Below, piece after piece: positions 12,700 through 38,879 of a stretch of DNA of 58,186 bases; the stretch's first letter is position 1; every line of letters begins with the position of its first letter. The position numbers were made by a program, and so were the translations under genes. Under the pieces are notes generated by a model. The model made no database searches. It was not told the origin of the DNA and saw only the letters and a program-made list of their open reading frames with translations. Source of the DNA: Flammeovirgaceae bacterium (lineage in GTDB: Bacteria > Bacteroidota > Bacteroidia > Cytophagales > Cyclobacteriaceae); contig JAJTGQ010000087.1 in assembly GCA_021299455.1 (NCBI GenBank), positions 1-58,186 on the forward strand, given 5' to 3'.

Positions 12700-14727
12700 C
12701 TACTTCACTGAAAAACTGACTTTTGTCACTCCAACACCTTTTATCTCCAATGATTTCCAGGTCTTTGGCAGCTTGGTTTTTATTTGCGTGATGCCTGCAT
12801 CAGAAATGGTTAATCCACCAAATCCATTCATGACGGCTTGTAAAAATCCTCCTGCTCCGGTTGCAAAATAAGGATTGGTTCCACCCGCGGTCTCTGACAA
12901 CACACCAAAGGGAGGCACTTCGTTTGGCTTGTAAGATTTTGCAAACAGCTCCGTTGCTTTCTCCAGGTTTCCCATTCGAGAATAGATGGCAGATAGTGCT
13001 GAATGCCCCATTGCTGGACCTTCGGGTGAGTAGCGGGGCTCATAGTACTTCAGGTCTTTTTCAATCTGGGCTTTGTCTGTAATGAAGTCTAAGGGAAATG
13101 CCAACAAATTTACGTCTCCTTGCTTGATAGTTACACCATCATAAGTAGCATTTTCCTTTGTCGTACCATCAGGAAATTTCAAGATCGGTATATTCTGCGC
13201 AACCACTTCCCAATCGGGATTAGGAGCAAGGCCCATCTCCTTGGCTGCCTGGGTCGCATACTGAAGTACAGTAATAGCCATGCCATTGGTGAACGCATTG
13301 TTGTCAATATTTTCTTGCCATTCGTTTGCACCAATTACGTTGTTGATCTCAAATTTCCCTGGACCTTTTCGCTCGACTCTACTCGCCCAGAAATCAGCTA
13401 CTTCCTTTAGCATTGGATAGCCTCTGTCCTTAAGCCATTGTTTGTCTTTTGTCACTTGGTAATACTTCCAAAAAGCCCAGCCAACGCAACCGGTGATGTG
13501 CTGCTGAAACGGACCCGTTAATGCCCAAACGGGAGTATCTTCGGTGCCCTCAGCCGATGATTCCCAGGGGAACATCGCCCCTTTGTAGCCATGCGAAAAT
13601 GCATTCTGCTTGGCGGCAGCCAAGCGGTTGAACCTATACTCTAATATTGACTTGGCAATCTCTGGCTGCAGCATAAGGATAGGCGGATACATCCATAACT
13701 CAGTGTCCCAAAATACGTGTCCGTTATATCCGAGCCCGGAAAGACCCATGGGAGAAAGGCTCAACCCTGTACCTTCTCTCGCAAAGGAGTAAAGATGATA
13801 TAATGCAAATCGAACATCCTTTTGAGTTTGCAAATCACCCTCAATTACAATATCGCTCTTCCACAATTTTTCCCATTCTGCTAAATGGCGTTGGAGTAAT
13901 CGTTCCGTTCCTTCCAATCGCGCAAAGATCGTAAGTCGCTCCGCTTCATTCAACGGATCTTGAAAGTTCACGGTAGAAGTGGCTGAAGAAACAACGCTAA
14001 ACGAATAGCTCTCTCCGGCTTTTAAACTCTTATTGAACTTTGCGAGATGCATACTGTAGTCCCAATCTTCGTGAATGAGATCAGGTTCTTGCCCATGGGG
14101 CTCCGAAAAAATAATGCTATTACTAGCGGCAACTGTGTGCTTACCAGAGGGGCTTTTTCCTACTGAAGATAACAAGGGCAACTTCACATGAGGCCGATCT
14201 ATTTCGCTATATGTATTGCGCACATCGGCCAAGTGATTAGGAGCTTCAATTACACTCATCGGTGTCACGTTGACATCCTTTTTTGCTTTTAATTCCACAA
14301 TCGACATGGCTGTGTAGGGCAAGTGTCGAAGTGCCATCATCGAGTGCTTCACCGAAAGTTTATCACCCACATCAAAAGTTGTTACTAAAATTGCTTTCTT
14401 CATATCTAGCGTTTGGTGGTAGTTAGAGATATCTCTAATGCCCATTCTCCTACCATCCACATCCAAATTCATATTGGCATGGTTGAAGGTCTTCAAAATA
14501 TTGGAAACACGTCCACGCTGATAATAATCATAAACGCCATTCAATACTACATCTTTTACTCTCATCGGATCAGGAGAGGATACCAAGCCGATCATGCCAT
14601 TAGCCACGGCTACTCCGTAATAATTGTTAGGGTCAATGGCTTTGGCTTCGATGAGCCACGGGTCGCTTTGCTGAGAAAAAACTTCAACTCCGCACAGAAT
14701 TAAGATCAACGTGAGCAAATGCTTCAT
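12700..14727 (-). CDS. Secreted GH65 family glycoside hydrolase
   Basis: 675 residues with a signal peptide (1-19, ending V-F-S-Q-Q). The (alpha/alpha)6 barrel of GH65 is visible through FWDTELWMYPPI (339-350) and GANEWQENIDNNAFTN (466-481), where Glu469 is the general acid equivalent of maltose/kojibiose phosphorylases. Most bacterial GH65 proteins are cytoplasmic phosphorylases; export to the periplasm, where phosphate-dependent cleavage would waste the sugar phosphate, favours a hydrolase such as the acid trehalase or glucosyl-galactose glucosidase branch. Substrate is probably an alpha-glucoside such as trehalose, kojibiose or a glucosyl disaccharide. Its ATG overlaps the stop codon of the propeller protein gene upstream (ATGA at 14727-14724), so the two are translationally coupled. 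Confidence 0.85.
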   Translation of the reverse strand: MKHLLTLILILCGVEVFSQQSDPWLIEAKAIDPNNYYGVAVANGMIGLVSSPDPMRVKDVVLNGVYDYYQRGRVSNILKTFNHANMNLDVDGRRMGIRDISNYHQTLDMKKAILVTTFDVGDKLSVKHSMMALRHLPYTAMSIVELKAKKDVNVTPMSVIEAPNHLADVRNTYSEIDRPHVKLPLLSSVGKSPSGKHTVAASNSIIFSEPHGQEPDLIHEDWDYSMHLAKFNKSLKAGESYSFSVVSSATSTVNFQDPLNEAERLTIFARLEGTERLLQRHLAEWEKLWKSDIVIEGDLQTQKDVRFALYHLYSFAREGTGLSLSPMGLSGLGYNGHVFWDTELWMYPPILMLQPEIAKSILEYRFNRLAAAKQNAFSHGYKGAMFPWESSAEGTEDTPVWALTGPFQQHITGCVGWAFWKYYQVTKDKQWLKDRGYPMLKEVADFWASRVERKGPGKFEINNVIGANEWQENIDNNAFTNGMAITVLQYATQAAKEMGLAPNPDWEVVAQNIPILKFPDGTTKENATYDGVTIKQGDVNLLAFPLDFITDKAQIEKDLKYYEPRYSPEGPAMGHSALSAIYSRMGNLEKATELFAKSYKPNEVPPFGVLSETAGGTNPYFATGAGGFLQAVMNGFGGLTISDAGITQIKTKLPKTWKSLEIKGVGVTKVSFSVK

Positions 14728-17700
14728 TGTGATACTATTTTAAATCCTACGATGGACTGATCATTCCTTGAAACTAAGATAATTTTCTCATTTTTGAAAT
14801 TACTGAGTACCTGAATATGCCGTGTTTCTCCCTTCACCACAAATCCGGATTCTTGCGCGTCCACAGGCTTCCAGTTACCCATTCCGTCACCCAGCATAAT
14901 CAGACCGATACTCGCATCATACCTACCAAAATCGGGCTGCACCGCATCTAAATTTCCGCCTAGGAGCAAGTCGTTGAAGCCATCCTTGTTAACATCTTCC
15001 ATGGCGATCGCATAAACTGGAGCGAGTTGTGCTTCGGCTGGCAAATTCACTAGGGTTAATTTGCCTTTATCATTTCTTAGATAGGATGAACTGAGCGTTT
15101 CCACCTGCATGCGCGCTGAGTTTCCCTTTTGTTGGGGAGTGACAATGTCTTCCAGATTTACATTGCGGTAATCTTGGTAACGAAGGAATTTCCTTTTCAA
15201 ACCTGGAAGCTGCTTTATCAACTGATCGCGCGAGGCAAACGGGTAACTTTTGTCTCCATTGTAGTAAACCAAAATATGGTCTGACCCACCGTTGCTATCA
15301 AAGTCACCTAAGTACAAGGATAAAGGCTGTTCGGTAGAAACTTTTAATCGGGAGTTCTGACCTAAGTTGCCAAGCACATAATCGTCATCTCCATCATTGT
15401 CGAAATCAGATGCCTCGATTGCGTTCCACAAGCCGCTAGTAAAAGTAAGGCCAAACTGTTCGGTCTGGTTTTCAAATTGATGATTCTGATTTTGGATTAA
15501 AGCGGTAATGGGCATCCACTCCCCCACTAAAATCAAGTCAACACGGCCATCCTTATTCACATCCGTCCAGGCAGCATCCTTCACTAAGCCTGGTCGTATT
15601 TGCGTTGGATTATTAAACCGGCTATTGCCAAGCCAATTCGGCACATCCGAAAAATCACCTTTACCGTCATTTCGCAATAAATAGCTTTGGGGAGCCATTC
15701 CGTACAAAAAAGGTATTACACTTGCCCCGATAAAAACATCTGTATCTCCGTCTCCATCATAATCAAATGGCTTGATACATGATGCATTCAAAATTATTCT
15801 TGGAATTGAATTATTGTCTCGTTGAAAATTTCCGCGTCCATCGTTTTTGTAAAGTCTAGGTCGCAAAGCCTCCGGTTTGTTGCTTGGGTCTTGCCCACCA
15901 GCCGCTACCAATAAATCCAAATCATGATCACCGTCTACATCGATAAACTCGGCTGCTATGTCCTCGGTAAACGAATCAGAAAAAAAGTCTTTATTGCGTT
16001 TCTCAATCCACCCACCTTGCTTTGTTTGAATAAAAATTGAAGCAGACTGATCTTTGCCACCGCCTACAAAAATATCTGTTAAGGCATCCCCATCCACATC
16101 ACCTTGGGCTAACGGTGGTCCCTGGGTCGTTAGCATGTGGGGTATCAAGCCTTCGTTGTTGAACGAATTGTAATCATCTTCTTGGTGAACAAAATTTGGG
16201 ACTGATGATTTCGGTAGCGGCTCAACCATCCGCTTACTTGGCAGCAGGCGCTGATAATCAAATCTTTCTTTTGCGTCTGACTGTTTTGCGGAGATAGTCT
16301 TACCTGCCTCAACACTATTCAATTTCTGGAAAGTTCCTTTCGGCCAAACAATAAGAATTGAATCAGCTTTGACAGAATTTCCTAAACCAACAATTATTCT
16401 CGTATCGGAAGAAGAACTAAATCCACGTGTAGCCGAAACTTCGCAGGATTGAAAGTCAGTACCTGTGTAAGTTAAAACTTTAGCTCCTATGCCGAATGAA
16501 TTTGGTTTACTTCCAATTAAACTGATTCTTATGCTTTGCGATCGGGTATTATTTTGATATACGAAAGCCGGTTGATTGATGTTATTTACGACCACATCCA
16601 AATCTCCATCATTGTCCAAATCAGCGTACGCGCTTCCATTTGAAAAAGACGGAGTGTTGACTCCCCACTCCGTTGAAACGTCCTTAAAATGAATACCATC
16701 TACATTTTTAAAAACAAAGTTAGAAACCTTGCCATCCGGCATTGTATTCAAGATATTCAAGTCGGATGATTCGATGGTTTGAAGCGAATCTTGAATCGCT
16801 TGATTAGAAATGAAGTTGATATAGTCGAGGTCATTAGGCCTACGAACGATACCATTCGAAACAAATAAGTCTTTCAGTCCATCGTTGTCAAAATCTGCCA
16901 TCAAAGGAGACCAACTCCAATCGGTAGCTTCCACTCCCGCCAAAGGCGCGACATCACTAAAAGTAAGCAATGAGTCTGTGATGTACCGATTGAGTTGAAG
17001 GCAATTACGAGCTACTTGATAATGGTATCCGAATTTTAATTTGTATTTGTAAACTTCGTATGCATCCTCACCCGCAGAAGTTTTAATTACTGATTCATCC
17101 CTTGGTAGCATATCCGTTGTAATGATATCAGGCCGCCCATCGTTATTGATGTCCGATATATCATTGCCCATGGAAAAGCGGCTTGAGTGAGCCAATGATT
17201 TTTCAAGAATCTGTTTAAACGTTCCATCTTTCTGGTTGATATACAAATAATCGTTTTCCTGAAAATCGTTCGATACGTAGATATCAGGATATCCGTCAAG
17301 ATTAACATCTGAAACACCTACACCTAAGCCATACCCCAATCGACTGCTCAATATTCCAGCCTCACTGGTGACGTTTACAAACTTGATCAATCCAGTATTT
17401 CTTCCGTTGCTTAGCAATTCGTTTCTAAAAAGCTGATCACCACTCAGCGAATCAGACCTCACCCGGTTGGATATCGAAACATATGAGCTTGCACTATGTA
17501 CAGAATGATTGAGCAAATAACAATCTAAATCACCATCTAAATCATAGTCAAAAAAAATAGTTTGGGTTGAAAATCCTTTAAACTTCAACCCAAACTCCTC
17601 CGTTTTATCGGAAAAAGTTAAATCACCATTGTTGATCAGCAACTGGTTTTGAGAATTGAAACTTTTGTAATTGCCCACTCCACAAACATAGATATCCAAG

Positions 17701-18083
17701 AAGCCATCTCCGTTTACATCGGCCATAGTAACTCCCGTCTTCCAATTCCCAATTCCCTTTGCGCCCGATTTTTCGGTAATATCTTCAAACCTAAAACCAC
17801 CTTTATTGAGATAGAGCCTATTTGAATACTGATTAGAAGAAAAATAAATATCCAATAGCCCGTCATTGTTGATATCGCCACAGGCAACGCCACCCCCATT
17901 GTAAAAATAGAGATACTCGATAATGTTGAAATTCTTATCTTCAGTCAGTTGATTAGTAAATTGAATACCGGTCTCTGTTGGTGGCTTTAATGAAAAGAGA
18001 GGAGATGAAGTTTTTTCATCTGTACACTGTGCGAGTAAAAGGGAAGCGAACAAGCTAGCACATCGTAGCCACTGTTTATTCAT
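14724..18083 (-). CDS. FG-GAP/VCBS + ASPIC/UnbV (CRTAC1-type) lipoprotein, paralogue A
   Basis: 1119 residues. Lipoprotein signal with lipobox L-A-Q-C (Cys20). Seven calcium-loop motifs of the D-x-[DN]-x-D-G-x-x-D type follow at about residues 70, 122, 179, 259, 311, 397 and 488. Then comes an ASPIC/UnbV domain (about 520-600, with RGFSSSSDTRIIVGLG and the IVWPKG strand), then seven further motifs (QGDVDGD, FIDVDGD, PFDYDGDGD, WTDVNKDG, ASDFDNDGD, LGDFDSNG, MEDVNKDG). This reads as two seven-bladed integrin-like propellers around a central domain. It is probably a surface-anchored binding protein; ligand unknown. It overlaps paralogue B by 8 bp and the GH65 gene by 4 bp, so it belongs to one operon with them. 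No catalytic site is recognisable. Confidence 0.87.
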   Translation of the reverse strand: MNKQWLRCASLFASLLLAQCTDEKTSSPLFSLKPPTETGIQFTNQLTEDKNFNIIEYLYFYNGGGVACGDINNDGLLDIYFSSNQYSNRLYLNKGGFRFEDITEKSGAKGIGNWKTGVTMADVNGDGFLDIYVCGVGNYKSFNSQNQLLINNGDLTFSDKTEEFGLKFKGFSTQTIFFDYDLDGDLDCYLLNHSVHSASSYVSISNRVRSDSLSGDQLFRNELLSNGRNTGLIKFVNVTSEAGILSSRLGYGLGVGVSDVNLDGYPDIYVSNDFQENDYLYINQKDGTFKQILEKSLAHSSRFSMGNDISDINNDGRPDIITTDMLPRDESVIKTSAGEDAYEVYKYKLKFGYHYQVARNCLQLNRYITDSLLTFSDVAPLAGVEATDWSWSPLMADFDNDGLKDLFVSNGIVRRPNDLDYINFISNQAIQDSLQTIESSDLNILNTMPDGKVSNFVFKNVDGIHFKDVSTEWGVNTPSFSNGSAYADLDNDGDLDVVVNNINQPAFVYQNNTRSQSIRISLIGSKPNSFGIGAKVLTYTGTDFQSCEVSATRGFSSSSDTRIIVGLGNSVKADSILIVWPKGTFQKLNSVEAGKTISAKQSDAKERFDYQRLLPSKRMVEPLPKSSVPNFVHQEDDYNSFNNEGLIPHMLTTQGPPLAQGDVDGDALTDIFVGGGKDQSASIFIQTKQGGWIEKRNKDFFSDSFTEDIAAEFIDVDGDHDLDLLVAAGGQDPSNKPEALRPRLYKNDGRGNFQRDNNSIPRIILNASCIKPFDYDGDGDTDVFIGASVIPFLYGMAPQSYLLRNDGKGDFSDVPNWLGNSRFNNPTQIRPGLVKDAAWTDVNKDGRVDLILVGEWMPITALIQNQNHQFENQTEQFGLTFTSGLWNAIEASDFDNDGDDDYVLGNLGQNSRLKVSTEQPLSLYLGDFDSNGGSDHILVYYNGDKSYPFASRDQLIKQLPGLKRKFLRYQDYRNVNLEDIVTPQQKGNSARMQVETLSSSYLRNDKGKLTLVNLPAEAQLAPVYAIAMEDVNKDGFNDLLLGGNLDAVQPDFGRYDASIGLIMLGDGMGNWKPVDAQESGFVVKGETRHIQVLSNFKNEKIILVSRNDQSIVGFKIVSQ

Positions 18084-21000
18084 TCACTTTCAGAAAAATA
18101 GGTGTGTCATTATTACGTGCAACAAGAATTAAGTTATCCTTTCCAACCTTGATTCGTTTGATATCCCGAACCTCACCGTCAATCATCAATCCGCAATCGC
18201 GATTAGGTACCGCTTTAAATTTTCCCTTTCCATCACCCTTTAGAAATGTCCCAAAGCTGGCATCGTACCGACCTACTTCGGGTTTCACACGATACAGGTT
18301 CCCCCCAAGTAACAAGTCAAGATTGCCATCCTTGTCCAGGTCATCAACCAGTATTGCATATACTGGAGAAAACTGAGCTTCCATTGGCAGAGCCTCAATT
18401 CTGAAGTTGCCCTTCCCATCATTAATCAAGACTGAACTAGCTAAACTTGTCGCTTCAAACTCAACGGCAGTTTTAAGTTGCTCTGGCGTAAATATGTCAG
18501 TGATAGTCGCATGCTTGTAACTTTCGTACTTTAAAAATTTCTTTTTCAAGGATGGTATTTGCGATAGTAAATCGTGCTTTAAGGCTAACGGATAACTCTT
18601 ATCGCCATTGAACATACAAATGATTTGCTCCACTGTGCCATTTTGATCAAAATCACTTACCCACATGGTTGCCGGTTTATCTTGACTAGCCCTGAATCGG
18701 GAATTCAATCCATGATTTCCAACCACCAAATCAACATCGCCATCACGATCGAGATCGCTGGCCTCTACCACATTCCACCAGCCTGCGTTGGAATTCAGCA
18801 TTTCGTTTTTCTCCTCAATTAAAACTCCTTTTTGGTTTCTAAATATTTTTATCGGCATCCATTCCCCTACTACCACTAAATCATCGTCATGATCTTGATC
18901 AATATCCACCCACTTCGCATCCTTAGTCATTCCTAACTTGTTAAATCCTGACGCCAATTCAAGGGCTTGATTCATAAATTGCCCCATTCCATTATTCACA
19001 AGGAGATAGCCATCTACCGGCCATCCATAATAAAATGGTTTTAGCCGAGCGCCCACAAACAAATCGATGTCCCCATCTTTGTCAAAATCACTCGCTGCAA
19101 CCGTGGAAGAAGTAATGAAATCCGAAGCGGGTAGTAATTGATTCGATTTTGTAAAATTTCCATTGCCATCATTGAAGTAGAGCCTATCCGCCAAAGCACT
19201 CGAGCTAGATGGAAATTCTGATCCACCGCTACAAACATAGAGATCAAGATCGCCATCGTTGTCCGCATCGAAAAAAACATTTTGTGCGTCCTCTGATACT
19301 TTGTCCAAATCAAAAACAGATTGATTGGAATCGGTAAAACTAGTTTTACGTTGAATCATTAGTCGTCCAGCCTGATCCTTAGAACCTCCAAAATAAAAAT
19401 CCGCTAAGCCATCTTTGTTTACATCTCCGATTGAAACTCGAGGATATTCAGAACTATTCATATGAAAAATTAATCTGTCGCGATCAAAATCAACGAAACT
19501 ATTTTCTTGATGCTTACCAATGGGATAAGCATTGCTTACCTCTTCGAATAAACGATTGACCTTTGGGTGCGCAGATTTAACTACTGGTTGATAGGATTCG
19601 TTTTCATTCAGGTGAATGGTCTGATTTGTTTTTACATTTTTTAAAGATGTGATTTTACCTGTTGGCCATTTTACAAGAATACTGTCAACTTGTTTACTAT
19701 TTCCCAGCCCAACATTCGGTCGATGATCGACCGAGCTTTGAAAGCCCTTGATTGGCATTTGTTCGATATAGAAAATCTTATCGCCCAAGAAAATTGTAAT
19801 TTCTGCACCAAGAGCATATTGATTAGGTCGAGTTCCCTTCAAATCAAACTTTAAAAAATGATGGTCATTCATCGTTTTATTCAAATCGTTTCGGTAGACA
19901 AACGCAGGCATATTCACGTTATTAACGACCAAATCTAGGTCACCATCATTGTCTAAATCACCGTACGCAGAGCCATTTGAAAAACTGGGGGTAGCCAATC
20001 CCCATGCTTTAGAGAAGTCTGTAAAACTCAAACCATCTAAATTTTTGAAGGAATAATTCGGGACTTTTTGAGCAGGTATTAAATCAACTAATTTTTTATA
20101 GTCGACCTTGCCTTGCTTTAATACTGATTGTACAACATCTTCGCTTGTTACAAACTGTAAGTAATCTTGGTTGGTCAAATCATGATTGATTCCATTGGAA
20201 ACAAATAGATCTTTGTAGCCATCATTGTCAATATCGAAAATAAGAGCACCCCAACTCCAATCAGTCGCTTCAACTGTAGCCAGCCTGCCAATTTCGCTGA
20301 ACGTATTGTTGCCATTGTTTAGTTGCAACATGTTTCGGGTGAATTGGTGATAATAGTTATTTGAAAGTGCGTATTGATACCGATCCCAATTTTCGAAGGT
20401 AGTAACTGTTTTAACACGATCATTTTCGTGGGGTAACATTTCTGTCACAAAAATATCCGGGTACCCATCGTTATTAACATCCGCCATATCTGCGCCCATG
20501 GATGCACCGCTGATTGATTTCATTTGATGGACTAAGTCTTCTTTGAAAGTTCCATCATGATTGTTGATATACAAATAATCGCGTTCAAAAAAATCATTAC
20601 TTACATATATGTCTTGCCAGCCGTCTCGGTTAACATCGCCAACCGTAACACCGAGTCCAAAACCGATTTCACTTCCGTAAATGCCTGCTGCTTCGCTTAT
20701 GTCTTTAAAAACATGGCCATCATTTCTCATTAACTTGTCGCCTCCCAATTTATTACGAGTAGCGCGCTCGTTCTTCATCATATTAAAACTACCAATGGCA
20801 CGATACGAATTATTCAGAATGTATAGGTCTAAGTCTCCATCCTTGTCATAGTCAAAAAAAACAGCATGGGTGGAGAATCCCTCATCCGCTACGCCATATT
20901 CTTTGGCTCTATCGGTAAATGTTAAATCTCCATTATTGATAAACAATTCATTTTGTTTGTTATCTCCTTTTACATCACCAGAGTTACATACATAGATGTC

Positions 21001-21390: not shown

Positions 21391-21406
21391 GTTGACTAAA
21401 AACTCG

Positions 21407-22000
21407 CTACAGGTTATGCTTAAAGGCAGGATGCAGGATGTCTTGAATATTTACCAGCACGTGTTGTTCACTTTGAATGTATACCATAATTCTCCTGTTG
21501 CCATCTAGCTTAACAGGAATTTCCTTCTCACCCACCTTAGCTGTAACAAATTCATTTCCTTTATACCAACTTAAAATAATCTTCATTACTTTCTCTTTCA
21601 ATACATCGGATTGATACTGCTTATTCCATGGCGACCAAGCCACGTAAGCAAATTCTAAGTTCATTTCATTAATCTTTTCGGTTTGATCATATTTCGGCAT
21701 AAACAGAAGCCTGATTTTGGCAGGAGGCTCGTGAAACAACGAATCCGTAAAAAGGTATTGCACCGAAGCATTGCCAGGACCTTCTGTTACCAATTGTTGC
21801 CTATTGAGATCAAAGCACTTTCCAAAGAATTCATCCTTTGAATTTCCAAAATTCACACCAAACAAAAGAGAATCTTTCCTGATCCCTTTTGCTAATTCTG
21901 ATTTAACAAGTTTGGTGTAGTCAGACTGTACGCAACCGCTCAAGCTAAACCACAATAGGAGAGCACTAATTAGATATTTTAAAAATCTCGAGTTCATCAT
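21407..22000 (-). CDS. Small hypothetical lipoprotein between propeller genes
   Basis: The start was set at the ATG pair 22000/21997 because it gives a good lipoprotein signal (MMNSRFLKYLISALLLWFSL, lipobox L-S-G-C); the open frame runs further upstream to 22045 but would put extra residues before the signal. About 197 residues. No recognised domain: it contains a stretch about an expected displacement (GVNFGNSKDEFFGKCFDLNRQQ) and a predicted mixed alpha/beta body. Its 5' end overlaps the end of paralogue C by about 35 bp and its stop lies 16 bp before paralogue B, so it is a fixed member of this operon and probably acts with the propeller lipoproteins at the envelope. Function unknown. Confidence 0.7.
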   Translation of the reverse strand: MMNSRFLKYLISALLLWFSLSGCVQSDYTKLVKSELAKGIRKDSLLFGVNFGNSKDEFFGKCFDLNRQQLVTEGPGNASVQYLFTDSLFHEPPAKIRLLFMPKYDQTEKINEMNLEFAYVAWSPWNKQYQSDVLKEKVMKIILSWYKGNEFVTAKVGEKEIPVKLDGNRRIMVYIQSEQHVLVNIQDILHPAFKHNL

Positions 22001-25000: not shown

Positions 25001-25247
25001 CGACCTGGTTGCCCGAAAAATAAATATCCAAGAGTCCATCGTTGTTGATATCGCCAATGGCCACGCCCGCGCCATTATAAAAATTGCGGTAGGTATAGGG
25101 ATTAAGGGTGTCTGAAAACGTTAGTTGATTTACAAAGCTGACTCCAGCCTCTGATGTGACATCTGAAAATAATGAGGGGCGAATATTCGATTTAGTACAT
25201 CCCCAGAGGGATACTACAAATACTATACACTTAATTCGATTTGACAT
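21966..25247 (-). CDS. FG-GAP/VCBS + ASPIC/UnbV (CRTAC1-type) lipoprotein, paralogue C
   Basis: The start was placed at the ATG 25247, which gives MSNRIKCIVFVVSLWGC, a lipoprotein signal with lipobox L-W-G-C; an upstream in-frame TTG at 25259 is less likely. 1093 residues. The seven N-terminal motifs are IGDINNDG, LADVNSDG, FFDYDHDGD, LGDFNHDD, YADLDNDG, LFDMDNDG and YGDLDNDGD. The ASPIC/UnbV block carries RGYQSCVQSNITIGLG. Seven C-terminal motifs follow: KGDIDQDG, LVDVDGDGD, PIDFDNDKD, AQDINNDG, SGDLNKDG, IGDFDKNG and VHDIDNDG. It is the first gene after SusD1. A 16-bp perfect hairpin ends only 10 bases before its start codon, so its expression probably depends on read-through or RNA structure. 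Ligand unknown. Confidence 0.87.
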   Translation of the reverse strand: MSNRIKCIVFVVSLWGCTKSNIRPSLFSDVTSEAGVSFVNQLTFSDTLNPYTYRNFYNGAGVAIGDINNDGLLDIYFSGNQVENKLYLNKDNFRFEDITEKAGVACSGAWSTGVTLADVNSDGFLDLYVCKSGSPHSPNRHNQLFINNGDLTFSDQSKPYGLDVIGLSVQAAFFDYDHDGDLDCYLLTNSFKSVGNYDIVKNQREIEDADGGGNKFFLNTGNTFIDYSKDVNIYTSNIGFGLGITLGDFNHDDWIDIYVSNDFFERDYLYINDQKGAFKEQLTDYFQSISLGSMGADYADLDNDGLKELFVTEMLPDSISRRKNKTVYENWNRYQLNVNAGYHHQFSRNVLQKEVGREHFVEIGRLAGVAASEWSWGALLFDMDNDGKRDIFIANGIYKDLLDRDYLAYTGAEENVRKIIKEEKNAIIKLIGQMPSSPFQNYSFKNLGDLRFENVASDWGLSEPHYSSGCAYGDLDNDGDLDLVISNINEKAIVYRNNTDTSTNKSITLQLRSTGANKFALGSEVKAHVGDTVFSADNFVTRGYQSCVQSNITIGLGNGVTKIDSLVIKWPDGSLSCVHNTPVNKKLILNDSKAVPSKTFNLPRKSNSIELIKVQKGFFRHQSSELIDFNRDRLLPMMFSDETPSLLKGDIDQDGVPDIYVGGGKGQAGTFLDFKNNDLKIKKVKSFATYQLSEETKGALVDVDGDGDLDFYMACGGRFFPKSSSALIDKLFLNNGKGEFTESPHSLPFIDFVSTSVVKPIDFDNDKDMDLFIGERFDPFSYGVGGRGFLFENDGKGFFTDATKQHAGSLENIGMVTDAEAQDINNDGWVDLTIVGDWMPIIVLKNDKGHFLDVSVELGLDKTEGWWHSIESGDLNKDGKPDFVVGNHGLNSFFKPGDRMYIGDFDKNGSSEQIFCTEMAGSYYPVLDKDELTAQLPSLKKDLLYFKDYAKKSVEQIWPSSVLSQSKVFEVKKLSSVALLSSANGFKLIDLPMEAQYSSIYGILVHDIDNDGIEDVIAGGNQYGVKPQFGRYDASGGWFFKGSLSKGKFEFLKGVDLNIKGQIRDIQYVEINGSKYILFAKYDDELEIFKISN

Positions 25248-25257
25248 GCAGGTAAAC

Positions 25258-25290: not shown

Positions 25291-25341
25291 CAAAATTATA
25301 AAAATCTTAATTAGTTAGATCTAGCTCAAATTAAATCTCTC

Positions 25342-26880
25342 TTACAAATAATCAGGGTTTTGGGTCAGTGTTCCAGCTGAAGAAGAAATCTGTTCTGCAG
25401 GAATTGGGAAAAGAATATACTTGTCGGCTGGGTGAGAGCCTTTTTCCCACCAAGCATTACCCCACGCTCCAAAGCGAATCAAATCAGTCCTTCTCAACGC
25501 TTCTTGGAACAACTCCCTTCCACGTTCGGCCAAGAACGCACCATCAGTCAAAGTACCAATACTCGGTAGTCCAGCCCGTGTTCTGATTTGGTCAACAAGT
25601 GTTTTTGCTGTTGCATCACCAGCATTTTTTCGGTAAAGAGCTTCTGCTTTATTCAACAAAACTTCTCCATATCTCAACACTGGAAAGTCATTGTCCATAT
25701 CAGGGTTTTGGCCAATTTTGAAACTGAACTTACCTAATCGTGCGCCAGCTTGGCGAGAACCATTTGGAAACAGTTCGTTGATTTTTGGAGTATAATTTAT
25801 TGGTGCACCATCAGGGTCGGCTTTATCAAAAGCAAGATCCAATATCGGGTTTCCAGAGATATCTGTCTGTGGGCCGACAATAAAATTAGCTGCCTTTCTT
25901 TTATCAGCTGCATCATAGGAATTATAAAATTCTTCTAGTGTAGAATAACCATTCCAAGGTTGCTGCCCTAGCTTATAAGTCAACTGGCTAGGGTAATGAA
26001 GCGTCATTTGTGCAAAATTCATTCCTCCTCCAGTTGCCTCATCAAAAGGCGCCACAAAGATGTGCTCAGCATTCTCCACATTATCTGGAGCAAAGACCTT
26101 CGCATAATTTGGATCAAGGCTGTAAACACCAGAATTAATCACAGCATCTGCCGCTGCAATTGCTTTGTCCAAATCGGCAGGATCGTGGGAAGGCAAACCT
26201 TTGTAAACTTTAGCATTTAGATACAACCGTGCTAACAGCGCATTTGCAGCCCCTTGGCTAACTCTACCATACTCTTGCTTTCCAGCAGGCAAACTTGGAA
26301 GTACAGCTAAAAGCTCAGATTCTACAAAGTTATAAACCTGTACACGTGTTGCCTGAGGTGCGTCCTGCCCTGTAACTGTGACAATCTTAACTCTGCCAAA
26401 CAAATCAAGCAATCTCCAATAGAAATACGCCCTCAATGTTCGCAACTGCGCTTTCCCTGCAGCGGAAGTGCCTGCCGCTGCAATCAAATCATTGCACTGG
26501 AAAATACCTCCATAAATATCACTCCATGCACCATTGATACCACCAACCGTAGGGGTAAACTGATGCTTGTGCATAATCAACCATATCCCCCCATCAAACC
26601 AGTCACCACCTTTTTGGGTGATGACAGCCTCGTCGCTAGAAATTTCTTGAACTGAAAAATAACTACCATGGTTTGCAGTGCCGTTCAATAACCGCCCAAA
26701 TGCACCCGAAAGCCCATCAGATGGAGTAGGCTTGTTAACGTTAGTCTTTGTACCAACACCTTGATTAGCTGGAGTAATTTTAGTGGTAAAATCACCTTTT
26801 ATCTCCTCATCTAAATTGGTACACGAAGATCCACCGACTAAAAGCGCGATGATCAATGAGTATTTCAATAAATTTTTCAT
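25342..26880 (-). CDS. SusD/RagB family glycan-binding lipoprotein (SusD1)
   Basis: 512 residues. Lipoprotein signal with lipobox G-S-S-C (Cys20). The family's helical tetratrico-like scaffold is visible in the central segment (TLRAYFYWRLLDLFGRVKIVT, then SQGAANALLARLYLNAKVY). The C-terminal RagB signature is also present: RYGEVLLNKAEALYRK, RTRAGLPSI, ERGRELFQEALRRTDLIRFGAW and KYILFPIPAEQI ending NPDYL. SusD proteins sit as lids on their SusC transporter and bind the incoming oligosaccharide. It begins 24 bp after susC1, so the two form one unit. The specificity differs from SusD2 in length and sequence, so a different glycan is likely; which one cannot be told. Confidence 0.93.
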   Translation of the reverse strand: MKNLLKYSLIIALLVGGSSCTNLDEEIKGDFTTKITPANQGVGTKTNVNKPTPSDGLSGAFGRLLNGTANHGSYFSVQEISSDEAVITQKGGDWFDGGIWLIMHKHQFTPTVGGINGAWSDIYGGIFQCNDLIAAAGTSAAGKAQLRTLRAYFYWRLLDLFGRVKIVTVTGQDAPQATRVQVYNFVESELLAVLPSLPAGKQEYGRVSQGAANALLARLYLNAKVYKGLPSHDPADLDKAIAAADAVINSGVYSLDPNYAKVFAPDNVENAEHIFVAPFDEATGGGMNFAQMTLHYPSQLTYKLGQQPWNGYSTLEEFYNSYDAADKRKAANFIVGPQTDISGNPILDLAFDKADPDGAPINYTPKINELFPNGSRQAGARLGKFSFKIGQNPDMDNDFPVLRYGEVLLNKAEALYRKNAGDATAKTLVDQIRTRAGLPSIGTLTDGAFLAERGRELFQEALRRTDLIRFGAWGNAWWEKGSHPADKYILFPIPAEQISSSAGTLTQNPDYL

Positions 26881-26904
26881 ATTTAATTGTCTTAAAATTT
26901 CTAA

Positions 26905-29859
26905 TTATAATCCAATAGATACACCAAAGGTAAAGGTTCTAGAAGTAAAGTATGCATTTCTTCTATCAATACCGGGAGACAATGGATCGGGCGCTGGCAA
27001 GAAACCGCCATTATCAGCAGCACCTTGATCTTGCAAAACCGGCTCAGGATCTATTCCTGTATATGAAGTCAGTACAAATATATTTTGACCTGCTGCATAC
27101 AATCGGATATTTTTAAACGTGCTTGTAGGAGAGAGTTTCACATTATACCCAATCGATATGTTGTCCAATTTTAGGAAGTCAGCATTTTCAACATATAGCG
27201 AACTGAACTTTGCTTCCGTTAAACCTGCCACAGCTTTAGATGTAGAGATTCTATTGTAAGAGTTGATTGCGCCTTTGTCAATTGGCTCGTAAAAAGCTCT
27301 GAAGTTGTTAGACAAGCTATGACCAAATGCCCCTCTAAAGAACGCATTTAAATCCCAATTCTTGTAAGTTAGCTTATTAGTCCATCCAATTTCCATAGTA
27401 GGAATACCACTTCCTAATTTTTGGTAATCTGCCTTAGGATCCAAGAACGTTTGGTCGGTAACTGAAACTGTTCCATCTCCATTTAAGTCTTTGAAAGACA
27501 CTGTTCCATCAGCATTCGCCCCAGCAAAAACCGGACCCCAAATCTGACCGATCTCTTCACCTACGGCAATTCTCACCTGGTTTACACCCGATTGCCCAGG
27601 CGCACCAAGAGGCGCTCTAGCTTGTGCAACTACTCCCGGAAGGTAAGATTCCAACGTTGTCTTATACGAGCTTAAAACGATACCAGGAGTCCATTTAACT
27701 TGACCCAATTGGATGTTTGAATAGTCAACCTTCAACTCGATACCTCTAGTCTGTAATGACCCAAGGTTTTCGAAGCGTGAATTTGAAGGGAATATTGTTA
27801 CGTCTAATTTATCGTTGAGTAAAATAAAGTCCTTGATATCTCTCGTGTAAACGTCCAAACTAGCCACCAATCTGCCAGACATCGCAAAGTCAACACCAAG
27901 ATTTATCTCGGTCTTTTGCTCCCATTTTAGATCAGGGTTCGCAGCTCTTGCAATGGTAACTGCACCACCACCTGTAAAATTGTAATTATACAATTCCTGT
28001 GAAATGCCATAATCATTTGGAAGTGACCCTGTAATTCCGTACCCCACACGTAACTTCAAGAGATCAACTTTCGCCAATTGGAGATACTTATTAAAATCAA
28101 CCGCCAAACCGGCAGAGGGAAATACACCAATTTGATTGTTCTTGCCCAATTTAGTTGACCCTTCTCTTCTTACTGATGCATTGAAGAAAATCGCATTGTC
28201 ATAACTCAAATTTAGGCGTCCGAAGAACGCGATGATCTTGTTCTTAGGAGATTTGTTGCTGGAAATATCTGTTAAATTAGGGTTACCTGATATTCTATCC
28301 CCAGCTGTTTCTATTGCATTGTATCCCAGTAGATCACTAGGAAAATTTCCCAACTCCACAAACAAATTATCAAATTGATCTTCTTGGTAGGAATATCCGC
28401 CTGTTAAATCCGCATTGACTTTACCAAAAGTCTTGGAATACTTTGCGTAGGCCTCTATCAGTGTAAAATTTGCTTCGTAATTATTTCTTCTGGCCAAACC
28501 TCCCCGATTGTATCCTCTAAAAAGTGAATTTCTAGAATAGTACTCATAAGAATTGCCCGTTTGATACTGCTGTCCGTAATTAAGACTAACTGTCAAATCC
28601 TTTAGGATATCATATGAAACCTGCGCACTGAAATTGATATTCTTTGTTTTACGCTCACTCGTATTTTGATCAATAATGGCAACGGGATTAAAATTATCAA
28701 ACAGAATGGCTTGATAATATTCGCCATTGGTAAATCTAACGGGAGCAGTTGGGTTGTACAAAACAGCATAACGCAAAGCTTCGTTGAATGATACATCTGT
28801 ATTTCTGCTTGTAAAAGAAGTTCCGATATCAATTCTCAATTTATCGTTGAAAGCTTTGTGGGTGAGTCTTGCTCTACTGTTGATTTGATCAAAACCAGAA
28901 TTTTTAAGAATTCCATCAATGTTTCTGAGGTTAGTTGAGATACGAAATGTGGTATGGGCGTTGCCTCCAGAAATACCTAAATTATGGACTCTGCTAGACC
29001 CATTTCTGGTAACTAAACTTTGCCAATCCGTGTTAGCACCAAGGTCATTGCCGCCAGCAGCAATATATTGACTTGCTGACATAACCGGCTGTCTGTTGAA
29101 AACAGATGATGAAGCTACGTAGGTGTTAAAGTCAATTGAAACAGCTCCTGGCTTATTAGAACCGCTTTTCGTAGTTACCAAGATCACACCACTTGAACCC
29201 CTGCTACCATAAATAGCAGCGGCTGATCCATCCTTTAAAACAGTTGTTGATTCGATATCATTAGGGTCAACGTTATCCAAAGACGCACCTAGAATACCGT
29301 CAACTACGATCAGGGGCTGTGAGTTTGCGCCAACAGTAGAAAGGCCTCTCAAGCGAATAATAGATGCTGAGTTTGGATCACCGCCTCTATTGTAGATACT
29401 TAATCCGGCCACTTTACCCTGGAGTAATTGAGTGGGGTCGTTGATGTTTCCTTGGTTGAAATCTTGTGCATTTACGGTAACCACAGAGCTGGTGAGCTCT
29501 TTCTTATCCTGAGAACCATAACCCACAACAACTACTTCTGTTAGCGAAGTGACGTCCGAGGCAAGGGTGACATCGAGTGTAGTTTGTGATCCAACTGATG
29601 CTTCTTGGGTAGTATACCCAACAAACGAAAATACAAGAGTCGCATTAGCTCCTACACTGATGGTATAATTTCCATCGGCATCTGTAACAGTTCCGTTAGT
29701 CGTTCCTTTTTCGAGGATGTTTACACCGGGAATTCCTGAGCCATCGTCAGATGACTTTACTTTACCTGACACGGAACGCTCCTGCGCGAAACCCACTAGG
29801 GTTGCGAACATCAGAACCACCGCGAGATACCTGCGAACAAACAGATACAATTTGGTCAT
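26905..29859 (-). CDS. SusC/RagA TonB-dependent outer-membrane transporter (SusC1)
   Basis: 984 residues. Signal peptide (1-25, ending G-F-A-Q), then a carboxypeptidase-regulatory-like beta domain (about 26-105, with GKVKSSDDGSGIPGVNILEKG in split form). The TonB-box region EVVVVGYGSQDKKE (about 107-120), a plug domain with LRGLSTVGANSQPLIVVDGI and the SusC block SAAAIYGSRGSSGVILVTTK follow. The remaining sequence is a 22-strand barrel with terminal Phe-rich strand (FTFGVSIGL). It imports an oligosaccharide across the outer membrane with SusD1. A perfect LacI-type palindrome lies 117 bp upstream of the ATG. The first 100 residues are very close to SusC2, which points to a shared origin of the two loci, while the barrel is diverged. 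Confidence 0.93.
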   Translation of the reverse strand: MTKLYLFVRRYLAVVLMFATLVGFAQERSVSGKVKSSDDGSGIPGVNILEKGTTNGTVTDADGNYTISVGANATLVFSFVGYTTQEASVGSQTTLDVTLASDVTSLTEVVVVGYGSQDKKELTSSVVTVNAQDFNQGNINDPTQLLQGKVAGLSIYNRGGDPNSASIIRLRGLSTVGANSQPLIVVDGILGASLDNVDPNDIESTTVLKDGSAAAIYGSRGSSGVILVTTKSGSNKPGAVSIDFNTYVASSSVFNRQPVMSASQYIAAGGNDLGANTDWQSLVTRNGSSRVHNLGISGGNAHTTFRISTNLRNIDGILKNSGFDQINSRARLTHKAFNDKLRIDIGTSFTSRNTDVSFNEALRYAVLYNPTAPVRFTNGEYYQAILFDNFNPVAIIDQNTSERKTKNINFSAQVSYDILKDLTVSLNYGQQYQTGNSYEYYSRNSLFRGYNRGGLARRNNYEANFTLIEAYAKYSKTFGKVNADLTGGYSYQEDQFDNLFVELGNFPSDLLGYNAIETAGDRISGNPNLTDISSNKSPKNKIIAFFGRLNLSYDNAIFFNASVRREGSTKLGKNNQIGVFPSAGLAVDFNKYLQLAKVDLLKLRVGYGITGSLPNDYGISQELYNYNFTGGGAVTIARAANPDLKWEQKTEINLGVDFAMSGRLVASLDVYTRDIKDFILLNDKLDVTIFPSNSRFENLGSLQTRGIELKVDYSNIQLGQVKWTPGIVLSSYKTTLESYLPGVVAQARAPLGAPGQSGVNQVRIAVGEEIGQIWGPVFAGANADGTVSFKDLNGDGTVSVTDQTFLDPKADYQKLGSGIPTMEIGWTNKLTYKNWDLNAFFRGAFGHSLSNNFRAFYEPIDKGAINSYNRISTSKAVAGLTEAKFSSLYVENADFLKLDNISIGYNVKLSPTSTFKNIRLYAAGQNIFVLTSYTGIDPEPVLQDQGAADNGGFLPAPDPLSPGIDRRNAYFTSRTFTFGVSIGL

Positions 29860-29975
29860 AGATTAATTGATTTAAGGTTTTAATTAAGTTGTCTAAACAG
29901 GATTTATTAAAAAATCCTACTCAATGTTATCGATTTATTACAAAACAACCTAAAAAAAAGTTGGAAAACGGTATC

Positions 29976-29987
29976 GCAAACGTTTGC
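29976..29987. promoter_or_regulatory. LacI-family operator upstream of susC1
   Basis: GCAAACGTTTGC is a perfect 12-base palindrome with the central CG typical of LacI/PurR/MalR-family operators. It lies 117 bp upstream of the SusC1 start. A near copy (CGCAACCGTTTGCG) precedes the LacI gene at 43627, making that protein the likely ligand. Confidence 0.7.
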
Positions 29988-30049
29988 AAAAACAAAGATT
30001 TTTAAAAAAAGTCGTTTTCGGTCTGAAATAGACGTTATGCCGCACCAAT

Positions 30050-33000
30050 TTACTTTTTGATGCGATTGGATATACTTCCACTAGATGGTCTAATTATAGA
30101 TAGGCTACTGTTGTTTCTGGTAACTAAAAGAAGATGCCCACCGCTCGCTCTCTTAAGTCGACTAACACTTCGCACATCACCAGTTAACCAAAGACCTGTT
30201 GCATATGAAGGGATTTCTTCAAATTGTTCTTCGGGGCCTCTCCTAAGCAGCAAACCGACACCGGCATTTGAATTTCCATACTGACTCCGATAAGCGTAGT
30301 TATTACCTGCCACAAGGATATCTATTTTGCCATCTCCTGTAAAGTCATCAGCTACAATACCATTCACACTGGAAACCTGAGCCGCCTTCGGCAATGGAGC
30401 AAGTGCAAATCGATCGTTACCCAGGTTTTCTAAAATTGACGAAGCCAATGTTTGGACGCAAAGTTGTTTGACATTAACTGCTTCCAATTTTGAAAAAATC
30501 TCTCCAGATGTTGCACGACCATACGAAGCATAATCACCATACGCTTTTCGCAACGGATTGAGTTGGTTTAATAATTCATCGCGCGAAGCGATGGGATAAC
30601 TTTCTTCTCCATTAAAATACGAAACGATGGGATCCATTTTTCCGTCACTATTGAAGTCGCCCACAGCAAGACGGAGGGGATGCGCAGTAGTCGCTTTCCA
30701 AGGCAGGTTTTGGCCCTCATTACCTACTACAAAATCAATGTCACCGTCACTATCAATATCAGCCGCAATTACCCGATTCCAAAGGCCGCCTGATTTCGAT
30801 AATGTTTCATTTTTTGATTCAATCAATTTGCCGCTCTCATTATTATAGAAAACTCTAATGGGCATCCAGTGGCCAACCACGATCAAATCCAACCAGCCAT
30901 CTTTATTTATATCTGTCCATAGCGCATCCTTTACAATACCTAGTTCGCGCAAATCGGGATTGATCTCTTTAGTAGCAACAACCAATTTGAACTTTCCGGT
31001 AGATGGATCTAGCTCATTTCTCAAAATAGCACCCGGTGACGGCAGGGGAAATTTCCCTGGCAACGAACTGCCTCCCACAAATAAATCAAGGTCGCCATCG
31101 CGATCATAATCTCCAGCAACTACGCAACTGCCACTCACATGGTCAACAGGCGCACTTCCCTCAATGGCTTTTTGAAAATCTCCTTTCCCATTATTAATAT
31201 AAAGCCTGTCTTCCTGTTCGGTAGTTCCATTTTCAAATTCGTTTCCACCACTTACCACAAACAAATCTTGATCACCATCGCCATCTACATCAAAAAAAGT
31301 TGCGCCAACGTCTTCTTTGGCGGCATCCATCTGCCACGGGCGCTGGATCGATTTGTCGAAGTGATTCCTGCTATTACTTACATACAACTCACCCGATTGA
31401 CCCGCGGCACCACCAACATAAAAATCATCATCTCCATCTCCATTTAAATCAGCGACTGCCAACGGAGGTCCACTCATTGACAACCGATAAGGTAACAGCG
31501 GCTCCCGATCAAAGTCAACAAATGTATTTTCCCGATGAACAAAGTCGATGTTAAGTTCCTTTGTCACATCTTCAAAATAGGGCTTTGCCACAGCTGCCGA
31601 TTTAGAGAGATCAACTATTGAACGACCATAGTCGATTTCTAGAAGCTGATTGGAGATTTGATTTTCCAAGATCGAAATTTTTCCATCCGGCCAAGCGACC
31701 CTTATCTGGTCAATCTTTTTTTGATCGCCTACACCAAACAACAGCAAAGCATCCACTGCAGATTGATAGCCACGGGTAAGTATTAACTCCTGCACCTGTG
31801 TCCTGTCTCGCGTTTGTACCTCAACACGCGCACCGACCCCAATCCTATTGTTCTCCGGGCCCTTCAGTTTAATTTTTAAAAAATTTTTGTTCAATTGATC
31901 GCTTGCATGATTTTCCCAAATAGTCGCGTGCTCGTTTGTGTTATTCGTAATCAGTTCCACATCTCCATCATTATCCAGATCGGCATAGGTAGCACCGAAA
32001 GACAAGTTTGGCTGATAGATCCCCCACTCTTTGGAACGATCAGTGAACGTCAGATCTCCATTGTTTTGAAACAAGTAATCGCTGGTTTTGGTAGAGGACA
32101 TCTGGCTAATAAGTTTATACAATTCCAACTCTTTACCTTCCTTTTGCGCTTTCTGTTTTTCATCCTCCACCGTATATTTCAAAAAATCCATACTAGTAAA
32201 ATCGCGCAGGTATCCATTGGTAACAAACAAGTCTTTATATCCGTCATTATCCACATCCACCCAAAGCGGAGCCCAACTCCAATCAGTGGAAGATACGTTC
32301 GCCAGCTGACCAATTTCAGAAAATAGTGGGAACCCATCCGGGCCAACTCCATTATTAACCTGGAGTGTATTTCTCATTTGTTGATGATGGAATCCGCTGT
32401 CCAACATCAACTGATACCGTTGATAATCATCTGGCCCTCGTAGTAACTTCTGCCGGTAGTTATCCTCCGGCCACATGTCCACCTCGATCAAATCAAGTTT
32501 ACCATCATTGTTAAAGTCTGCCAGATCGGTGCCCATTCCATTTCTGGACAAATGACCGAATGACTTTTTAGTAGCATCGGTGAACGTCCCATCTCGGTTG
32601 TTGAGATAGAAATAATCTTGCTCTTCGTAGTCGTTGGTAACATAGATATCTGACCACCCATCACTATCTACGTCTCCTATTGAAACACCCAAACTGAAAT
32701 TGAGCCCTCCACCATGTATGCCGGCTTCCTTACTTACTTCAGTGAAAAACCGCTTCTGTGAACTTTGTTTTGTAGAATCAACTACAAGATCATTGCGATA
32801 CAATCTGTTTCCAAAATTGGGGTGTCGCTCGTTTCGTAGTTTATTGGTGTTGATAAATGGAGAATAAAAATGAACCCCGTGATTAATTAAAAACATATCC
32901 AGATCACCATCACGATCATAGTCGAAAAACGCTGCTTGCGTAGAAAACGTACCTGGTGCATCCAACCCATAGGCAGCAGCTTGTTCACTAAAAACAGGAG

Positions 33001-33484
33001 TCGAGCCGTTAGTTGAACCGCCATTAACAAAGAGTTCATTGGAAAGATTATTCTTTAGATCTGGGCCGGAATAACAAACATAAATATCCAGCCAGCCGTC
33101 ATTGTTGATATCAACCACTGTGGTGCCTGTCTTCCAGAGACTACGGCCGCCCACACCGGCATTTTTGGTTACATCTTTGAACCGCAGATTGCCTTGGTTG
33201 AGGTAAAGGCGATTGCTAACCGTATTTCCAGTGAAAAAAAGATCGCAAAGTCCATCGTTATTAAAATCTCCAGCGGCTACTCCCCCACCGTTGTAAGTAT
33301 ACTCATAGGTAAGAATATTAATCTCCGGTGTTTCGACTATAGAATTTTCAAAATCAATTCCTGATTTTGCAGATTCTAATCGGGTAAACAACGAGGCATC
33401 TTTCTTGTCGCAACTCTGACAGAAAAACAACAAAAGAAATCCTATTGCTGCACTATACCATGACGAAGTCCAACGTGGTTTCAA
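30050..33484 (-). CDS. FG-GAP/VCBS + ASPIC/UnbV (CRTAC1-type) lipoprotein, paralogue D
   Basis: About 1144 residues. No ATG is available near the 5' end. A TTG at 33484 gives a short basic start (K-P-R-W), a hydrophobic core and the lipobox-like F-C-Q-S-C, so I prefer it; the frame stays open to a TTG at 33592. Seven N-terminal motifs (AGDFNNDG, VVDINNDG, FFDYDRDGD, IGDVDSDG, LADFNNDG, WVDVDNDG, YADLDNDGD) are followed by an ASPIC/UnbV block with RGYQSAVDALLLFGVG. The second seven are VADLNGDGD, FFDVDGDGD, AGDYDRDGD, WTDINKDG, AADIDSDGD, VGDFNSDG and ADDFTGDG. It is the last gene of the SusC2 locus, downstream of the T9SS amylase. This separates it from the other three paralogues and suggests one propeller protein per SusCD pair, with expansion at the SusC1 locus. 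Confidence 0.83.
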   Translation of the reverse strand: MKPRWTSSWYSAAIGFLLLFFCQSCDKKDASLFTRLESAKSGIDFENSIVETPEINILTYEYTYNGGGVAAGDFNNDGLCDLFFTGNTVSNRLYLNQGNLRFKDVTKNAGVGGRSLWKTGTTVVDINNDGWLDIYVCYSGPDLKNNLSNELFVNGGSTNGSTPVFSEQAAAYGLDAPGTFSTQAAFFDYDRDGDLDMFLINHGVHFYSPFINTNKLRNERHPNFGNRLYRNDLVVDSTKQSSQKRFFTEVSKEAGIHGGGLNFSLGVSIGDVDSDGWSDIYVTNDYEEQDYFYLNNRDGTFTDATKKSFGHLSRNGMGTDLADFNNDGKLDLIEVDMWPEDNYRQKLLRGPDDYQRYQLMLDSGFHHQQMRNTLQVNNGVGPDGFPLFSEIGQLANVSSTDWSWAPLWVDVDNDGYKDLFVTNGYLRDFTSMDFLKYTVEDEKQKAQKEGKELELYKLISQMSSTKTSDYLFQNNGDLTFTDRSKEWGIYQPNLSFGATYADLDNDGDVELITNNTNEHATIWENHASDQLNKNFLKIKLKGPENNRIGVGARVEVQTRDRTQVQELILTRGYQSAVDALLLFGVGDQKKIDQIRVAWPDGKISILENQISNQLLEIDYGRSIVDLSKSAAVAKPYFEDVTKELNIDFVHRENTFVDFDREPLLPYRLSMSGPPLAVADLNGDGDDDFYVGGAAGQSGELYVSNSRNHFDKSIQRPWQMDAAKEDVGATFFDVDGDGDQDLFVVSGGNEFENGTTEQEDRLYINNGKGDFQKAIEGSAPVDHVSGSCVVAGDYDRDGDLDLFVGGSSLPGKFPLPSPGAILRNELDPSTGKFKLVVATKEINPDLRELGIVKDALWTDINKDGWLDLIVVGHWMPIRVFYNNESGKLIESKNETLSKSGGLWNRVIAADIDSDGDIDFVVGNEGQNLPWKATTAHPLRLAVGDFNSDGKMDPIVSYFNGEESYPIASRDELLNQLNPLRKAYGDYASYGRATSGEIFSKLEAVNVKQLCVQTLASSILENLGNDRFALAPLPKAAQVSSVNGIVADDFTGDGKIDILVAGNNYAYRSQYGNSNAGVGLLLRRGPEEQFEEIPSYATGLWLTGDVRSVSRLKRASGGHLLLVTRNNSSLSIIRPSSGSISNRIKK

Positions 33485-38857: not shown

Positions 38858-38879
38858 AGTATAATTAATTGTTTGATTG

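Follow-up and report, generated by a model that had tools for sequence, protein, structure and literature searches.

A window of 58,186 nucleotides from a Flammeovirgaceae bacterium (contig JAJTGQ010000087.1, assembly GCA_021299455.1; the window denotes this whole stretch) was analyzed, and the segment 10775-29859 was found to be one copy of a conserved outer-membrane operon. This operon is composed of SusC, SusD, a first propeller gene, often a small lipoprotein gene (LP), second and third propeller genes, often a gene for a vanadium haloperoxidase-type lipoprotein (VHPO), and optional glycan enzymes. On the minus strand of the window, from 29859 to 10775, the order is SusC-SusD-P3-LP-P2-P1-GH65-two small open reading frames (ORFs)-VHPO. 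From SusC through GH65, the genes overlap or are separated by gaps of less than 100 bases, and a SusC/RagA-type transporter gene and an adjacent SusD lipoprotein gene are both present, 24 bases apart. The initial annotation, which placed three propeller copies in one operon with the SusC-SusD pair (SusCD), a GH65 enzyme, and a haloperoxidase-like gene, agrees with this order but did not mention LP and the two small ORFs. The genes of the operon and the fourth propeller gene beside it are as follows.

26905..29859, minus strand: SusC-like TonB-dependent transporter, first operon gene (TIGR04056, 639.2 bits; cut-off 368.25)
25342..26880, minus strand: SusD-like lipoprotein (PF07980, 88.1 bits; cut-off 23.1)
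21966..25247, minus strand: P3, predicted two-propeller ASPIC lipoprotein, position 1 (ORF, Pfam, loop count, tree)
21407..22000, minus strand: LP, small lipoprotein of 197 amino acids between positions 1 and 2, without a Pfam match
18076..21390, minus strand: P2 (P0002), predicted two-propeller ASPIC lipoprotein, position 2, modeled (AlphaFold2)
14724..18083, minus strand: P1, predicted two-propeller ASPIC lipoprotein, position 3 (ORF, Pfam, loop count, tree)
12700..14727, minus strand: GH65, predicted kojibiose hydrolase, its start resembling a signal peptide by eye (NF053734; PDB 7fe3)
12373..12684, minus strand: small DUF4160 ORF between GH65 and VHPO (PF13711, 38.6 bits; cut-off 23)
12101..12445, minus strand: small DUF2442 ORF between GH65 and VHPO (PF10387, 24.7 bits; cut-off 23.9)
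10775..12094, minus strand: VHPO, last operon gene (phmmer match to PDB 4cit)
30050..33484, minus strand: P4, predicted two-propeller ASPIC lipoprotein, last gene of a neighboring starch-type locus (separate lineage)

All four propeller ORFs named in the initial annotation are open, and each encodes a protein of approximately 1,100 amino acids; the start codon of P4 (30050-33484) is TTG and is unsure. In the Pfam analysis, each of P1 to P4 matched FG-GAP_3 (208-256 bits) and contained one UnbV_ASPIC domain (44-73 bits; cut-off 23.4), with FG-GAP repeats flanking the ASPIC/UnbV domain on both sides. The proteins thus have the make-up of CRTAC1, an FG-GAP/VCBS propeller plus ASPIC/UnbV, and CRTAC1 (PDB 9etn) matches by profile and by Foldseek. 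They do not have the single propeller of CRTAC1, as the ASPIC domain is followed by another series of FG-GAP repeats and blades. The strict calcium-loop pattern D.[DN].[DN]G detected 12, 13, 12, and 13 loops in the four proteins. When degenerate loops at aligned places were added (DVDGDALTD, DIDQDHDDD, DFNHDDWID, and DFTGDGKID among them), every copy showed seven loops, the ASPIC/UnbV domain, and seven further loops, as had been proposed; three matches to a looser pattern outside the aligned places (P1 154, P3 150, and P3 628) were dropped from this count. In a 66-row family alignment (P1, P2, P3, and 63 of 103 eligible relatives, with P4 left out), all 14 loop places were loop-like in 57 to 66 rows each. 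The signature before loop six, described earlier as a shared DWSW, reads DWSW in three copies but EWSW in P3 (21966-25247), and both of its tryptophans are invariant in all 66 rows.

The structure of P2, one of the four proteins, was predicted with AlphaFold2 on the 66-row alignment, and the model was confident over nearly its full length (mean pLDDT 91.9, pTM 0.92). The best Foldseek match of the model in the PDB was CRTAC1 (9etn; E 2.8e-27, TM 0.70 by target and 0.36 by query), which was also the best sequence-profile match (E 5.5e-25). The N-terminal half contains 28 strands, corresponding to seven blades of four strands with the first strand closing the ring, and the closing pair 31-34/497-501 ranks third in covariation. 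The covariation data were shallow (202 rows, about 164 effective); in a calibration on the N-terminal half, whose strands were read from the model, expected in-blade neighbors made up 10 of the 21 highest-scoring strand pairs (378 pairs in all). The model has 32 strands in the C-terminal half, where covariation pairs strand 887-891 with 986-990, and strand 907-912 with 921-928 and 976-980. Because strand 887-891 pairs with 986-990, residues 892-985 would form an insert with four strands, leaving 28 strands, that is, seven blades.

Closure of the C-terminal ring is weakly supported. The closing pair 614-618/1098-1102 is weak and falls outside the 36 best pairs, and strand 614-618 is coupled more strongly to 921-928 and 676-680 than to 1098-1102; in favor of closure, the residue pair 651-1076 links the first blade to the last. 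Two other arrangements were considered. A single 14-bladed ring was rejected, as the ASPIC domain parts the two halves and the N-terminal half closes on itself (31-34 with 497-501). Eight C-terminal blades, counted from the 32 strands, are less likely, as the pairing 887-891/986-990 and those of 907-912 imply an insert. With seven blades, this insert (strands 907 to 980) would hold loop 13, six loops would lie in blades, and the last blade would have no loop, indicating that the seven plus seven loops match the seven plus seven blades partly by coincidence. The two seven-bladed propellers proposed in the initial annotation are therefore favored by the P2 model and covariation, but the equation of one loop with one blade fails in the C-terminal half. 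The structure prediction, made for P2 alone of the four, did not refute the two-propeller reading, and seven plus seven blades per protein are favored by the model, not proven.

Conservation of the operon was assessed in the best 80 of 536 related loci, many of which lie on short or cut contigs. SusC was present in 63 of these loci, SusD in 62, VHPO in 37, LP in 30, and GH65 in 8. Among the 64 loci with at least 1.8 kb of upstream sequence, SusC-SusD lay directly upstream (within 1.5 kb) of the propeller run in 51, with a median SusD-propeller gap of about 100 bp; VHPO lay downstream in 32 of the 61 loci with at least 1.7 kb of downstream sequence, within 500 bp in 26 of them. A separate recount found a contiguous SusC-SusD-propeller (or LP) order in 51 of the best 80 loci. 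These 51 loci represent six classes of Bacteroidota plus Rhodothermia (Cytophagia 23, Flavobacteriia 13, Sphingobacteriia 4, Bacteroidia 3, Saprospiria 3, Chitinophagia 3, Rhodothermia 1, and no class 1). One SusC-SusD-propeller arrangement (L052) lies on a contig that binning assigned to Calditrichota and not to Bacteroidota. The enzymes encoded by the tail genes vary, and a scan of 81 of the 91 unassigned tail ORFs, with 25 of 86 families listed, found no single shared substrate enzyme. A GyrI-like domain was found in 7 of the 81 tail ORFs, one of them just after a haloperoxidase gene (L058:17939-18835), and a cluster of approximately 300-amino-acid proteins, which may or may not be the GyrI-like set, occurs in 12 loci.

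The gene neighborhoods were compared among 20-kb stretches, with 20 stretches per set. Counted as presence within the stretch, not adjacency, SusD, SusC, and VHPO were found in 13, 16, and 8 of the 20 two-propeller stretches, in 3, 4, and 1 of the 20 shorter-ASPIC stretches, and in 1, 3, and 0 of the 20 other stretches, respectively. The difference in SusD was significant between two-propeller and shorter-ASPIC stretches (Fisher test, p 0.003), both sets being hand-picked from the listed ASPIC matches, one per genome, by open-frame length and thus non-random, and between two-propeller stretches and the others (p 0.0001), which were chosen arbitrarily, 15 at a distance of 70 kb from a two-propeller match. 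The "one propeller" class of shorter ASPIC genes was assigned from length, one of its stretches (L117) comprises only 11,227 bases, and some stretches are not independent: L094 overlaps L110, and the pairs L046/L106 and L056/L095, each spanning two sets, have genes in common. Of the three shorter-ASPIC stretches with SusD, two (L110 and L112) also contain a two-propeller gene. A chance neighborhood with SusCD was rejected by these control sets and Fisher tests, in line with the association drawn in the initial annotation; it is strong, non-random, widespread, and much stronger for the two-propeller class than for the shorter ASPIC genes.

In a survey of 118 sampled genomes of the phylum, ASPIC domains were found in 53. 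VHPO (E ≤ 1e-60) was found in 21 genomes, all of which were ASPIC-bearing, compared with 32 ASPIC-bearing genomes among the other 97 (p 3e-9, uncorrected for genome relatedness). Of the 26 VHPO genes scoring 440 bits or more, at least 18 lay within 6 kb of a listed ASPIC domain, as judged by comparing positions by hand.

A FastTree tree of 169 propeller proteins was used to compare the propeller positions. P3, P2, and P1 each group with genes of their own position from other LP-bearing operons, and 5 position changes account for the 71 genes that occupy the three positions in LP-bearing operons, the minimum being 2. These results suggest that the three positions of LP-bearing operons are old, non-interchangeable, and largely separate lineages. 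Where an operon has two propeller genes, the second mostly belongs to the position-3 lineage, whereas the first genes of operons lacking LP are spread over the tree (17 changes for this group). P4 belongs to a separate lineage, with its nearest genes in Spirosoma/Larkinella loci.

The LP of the window had no Pfam match, and no PDB structure matched the fold of its confident model (pLDDT 94) at E ≤ 0.001. All 30 LP genes in the related loci have a propeller gene within 500 bp, 25 of them on both sides, and LP was found in 7 of the 118 sampled genomes, each time beside ASPIC genes. GH65 scored above the NCBIfam equivalog cut-off for kojibiose hydrolase (NF053734, 1116.8 bits versus 800), and by this assignment it is a kojibiose hydrolase; the closest solved sequence is PDB 7fe3 (778 bits), which we take to be the Flavobacterium johnsoniae enzyme. 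The overlapping DUF4160 and DUF2442 ORFs inserted between GH65 and VHPO (12101-12684) are perhaps a small separate module.

VHPO is homologous to PDB 4cit over 420 residues (phmmer E 1.8e-151) and matches Pfam PF01569. All 18 rows of a family alignment keep the lipobox cysteine, K320, R327-P328, H356, R406, and H412. The lysine, arginine, SGH histidine, arginine, and histidine of the vanadate site, presumably K320, R327, H356, R406, and H412, are all kept and shared with 4cit. The PDB entry 4usz, identical in sequence to 4cit, is named as the Zobellia vanadium iodoperoxidase in PMC5064120. VHPO is a lipoprotein homologous to this Zobellia enzyme, with predicted haloperoxidase activity.

The genome carries two more ASPIC genes outside the window, on contigs C25 and C83. 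The C25 gene (L141:7930-11301) encodes a protein of 1,123 amino acids with a lipobox-like start, in which one FG-GAP propeller and an ASPIC domain (70 bits) are fused to a haloperoxidase-type domain (DUF6851, 33.2 bits, over the cut-off; VCPO_2nd, 26.3 bits, just under the cut-off; PDB haloperoxidase matches of 34.8 and 26.5 bits). This fusion is only a distant relative of the VHPO of the window. A second propeller-haloperoxidase-type fusion, without an ASPIC match, is present in another genome (L150), and in a further locus (L115) a haloperoxidase-type enzyme lies about 0.7 kb after a shorter ASPIC gene. These two fusions and this neighboring pair support a functional link of the propeller/ASPIC proteins with the haloperoxidase-type enzyme class.

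The C83 gene (L142:8210-11503), the sixth ASPIC gene of the genome, encodes a 1,098-amino-acid FG-GAP/ASPIC protein of two-propeller size and lies about 1.7 kb from a SusC-like gene. Elsewhere, at L112:4940-8380 and in L094/L110, genes for proteins of approximately 1,150 amino acids stand directly before an ASPIC gene of approximately 600 amino acids, with a SusCD pair further on; in the L112 protein, the one of these that was scanned, TPR and FG-GAP repeats accompany a partial match to ASPIC.

With regard to the neighboring genes, P4 closes a starch-type locus of SusC, SusD, two SusE-like proteins, and GH13, as first annotated. The other genes of this locus and its divergent regulator are as follows.

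33611..36442, minus strand: GH13 alpha-amylase with CBM48 and a type IX secretion tail
36516..38006, minus strand: SusE/SusF-like protein (PF14292, PF16411)
38024..38893, minus strand: SusE-like protein (PF14292)
38880..40475, minus strand: second SusD (PF07980, 117.5 bits)
40479..43472, minus strand: second SusC (PF00593, PF07715, and PF13715 above cut-off)
43676..44725, plus strand: LacI-type regulator, divergent from the second SusC

Only four SusD genes were detected with PF07980 in the 3.9-Mb genome, and two of them lie in this window.

We lean slightly toward a TonB-powered surface capture and uptake complex as the whole explanation of the operon. The propeller lipoproteins would be located on the cell surface around the SusCD transporter, where they may act as calcium-stabilized platforms that catch a polymer or oligosaccharide, and the captured ligand would be passed to SusD and SusC for TonB-driven import. 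Hydrolysis would follow behind import, here of alpha-1,2-glucosides by the kojibiose hydrolase, and P4 may serve the starch-type locus beside the operon. VHPO would most likely have the captured material as its target or take part in halide/peroxide chemistry on the cell surface. The surface receptor set suggested in the initial annotation fits the anatomy of SusCD plus lipoproteins, with surface exposure predicted. The kojibiose hydrolase inside the operon suggests that the system probably serves alpha-glucans in this genome, yet GH65 occurs in only 8 of the 80 related loci.

Several observations weigh against this explanation. SusCD was not directly upstream in 13 of the 64 loci, VHPO was not downstream in 29 of the 61 loci, and LP was not detected in 50 of the 80 loci, many contigs being cut. 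The separation of positions is less clean once LP-free operons are counted, the tree needing 13 position changes over all operons, and some control matches were weak (SusC in L085 and L087, 104 and 66 bits; SusD in L090, 33 bits). The enzymes next to the operon vary and thus do not point to one shared substrate. The six residues following the lipobox cysteine show no evident acidic signal of the kind expected of surface-exported lipoproteins (on average 1.19 acidic versus 1.40 basic residues; 145 of 169 rows). Binding, localization, and transport are all inferred from genes and models.

The presence of VHPO in 37 of the best 80 loci, its nesting within ASPIC-bearing genomes, its homology to a solved iodoperoxidase, and the existence of propeller-haloperoxidase-type fusions would also suit a surface oxidation system, in which VHPO makes hypohalous acid from iodide or bromide and peroxide for defense or detoxification, the propellers serve as a scaffold, and SusCD imports halogenated or oxidized products. 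Such a system appears rather unlikely, as the same 29 of 61 loci have no VHPO after the propeller run, glycan enzymes recur in the operon tails, and the hosts include the genera Spirosoma and Chryseolinea, which are soil or freshwater organisms. In favor of oxidation, one iodoperoxidase of Zobellia, vIPO3, whose gene may or may not lie in such an operon, is reported to be upregulated during growth on a brown alga (PMC9296495). The PF01569 match of VHPO would allow a different reading, in which the vanadium-type enzyme is a surface phosphatase, the propellers bind phosphorylated polymers, and SusCD imports the dephosphorylated product. The PAP2 fold is common to acid phosphatases and haloperoxidases, but the 12 PDB sequences that match the family profile (E ≤ 0.01) all bear the name of a haloperoxidase, chloroperoxidase, or NapH protein, and we consider a phosphatase improbable.

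It is likewise improbable that the propeller proteins are adhesins or matrix proteins that stand beside SusCD only as fellow surface genes. CRTAC1 is an extracellular-matrix protein, and profile matches to integrin alpha were obtained besides CRTAC1, but the tight order with overlapping or near-abutting genes, the positional lineages, and the contrast with the shorter ASPIC genes argue against independent adhesins. Beyond the capture and uptake complex favored above, SusCD, two or three two-propeller lipoproteins, LP, and surface VHPO might form one complex that oxidizes or halogenates captured polymer and imports the products, a proposal that we regard as doubtful; if true, these bacteria would use polymers by an oxidative route and not by hydrolysis alone.

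Several known systems resemble parts of the operon. CRTAC1 (9etn) shares with P1 to P4 an FG-GAP propeller followed by an ASPIC/UnbV domain, but its solved chain has 551 residues and, we assume, one propeller, whereas P1 to P4 are lipoproteins and add a second propeller after ASPIC. The Zobellia galactanivorans vanadium iodoperoxidase (4cit/4usz) resembles VHPO in homology and vanadate-site residues; VHPO, here a putative enzyme, sits in a SusCD-propeller operon. The FjDexUL locus of Flavobacterium johnsoniae shares with the operon a SusC-SusD pair, further lipoproteins, and a GH65 kojibiose hydrolase, but the eight genes named for it (SusR, SusC, SusD, SusE/F, GH66, GH31, GH97, and GH65) include no two-propeller protein, LP, or vanadium enzyme (PMC10316084). 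XusAB of Bacteroides, described as a surface beta-propeller lipoprotein forming a lid on a TonB-dependent transporter, likewise combines a propeller lipoprotein with such a transporter and offers a precedent for a lid arrangement, but XusB is a DUF4374 protein with one propeller and acts on ferric siderophores (PMC13142918). In the open-license library searched, no paper was found that joined UnbV with SusD, FG-GAP with SusC and SusD, or haloperoxidase with SusD and Bacteroidetes, and none of the matches listed was on this operon; among the UnbV papers listed, none dealt with SusCD as judged by its title or the opening of its abstract.

The operon thus looks undescribed yet widespread in bacteria. 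For what it takes up, there is a candidate in this genome alone, probably alpha-glucans, as judged from the enzyme inside it. Many ASPIC-bearing genes in the sampled genomes of the phylum belong to the two-propeller size class, which is tied here to SusCD, and the operon would provide a setting in which CRTAC1-like propellers, a new lipoprotein family (LP), and the iodoperoxidase-type enzymes of these bacteria can be tested.

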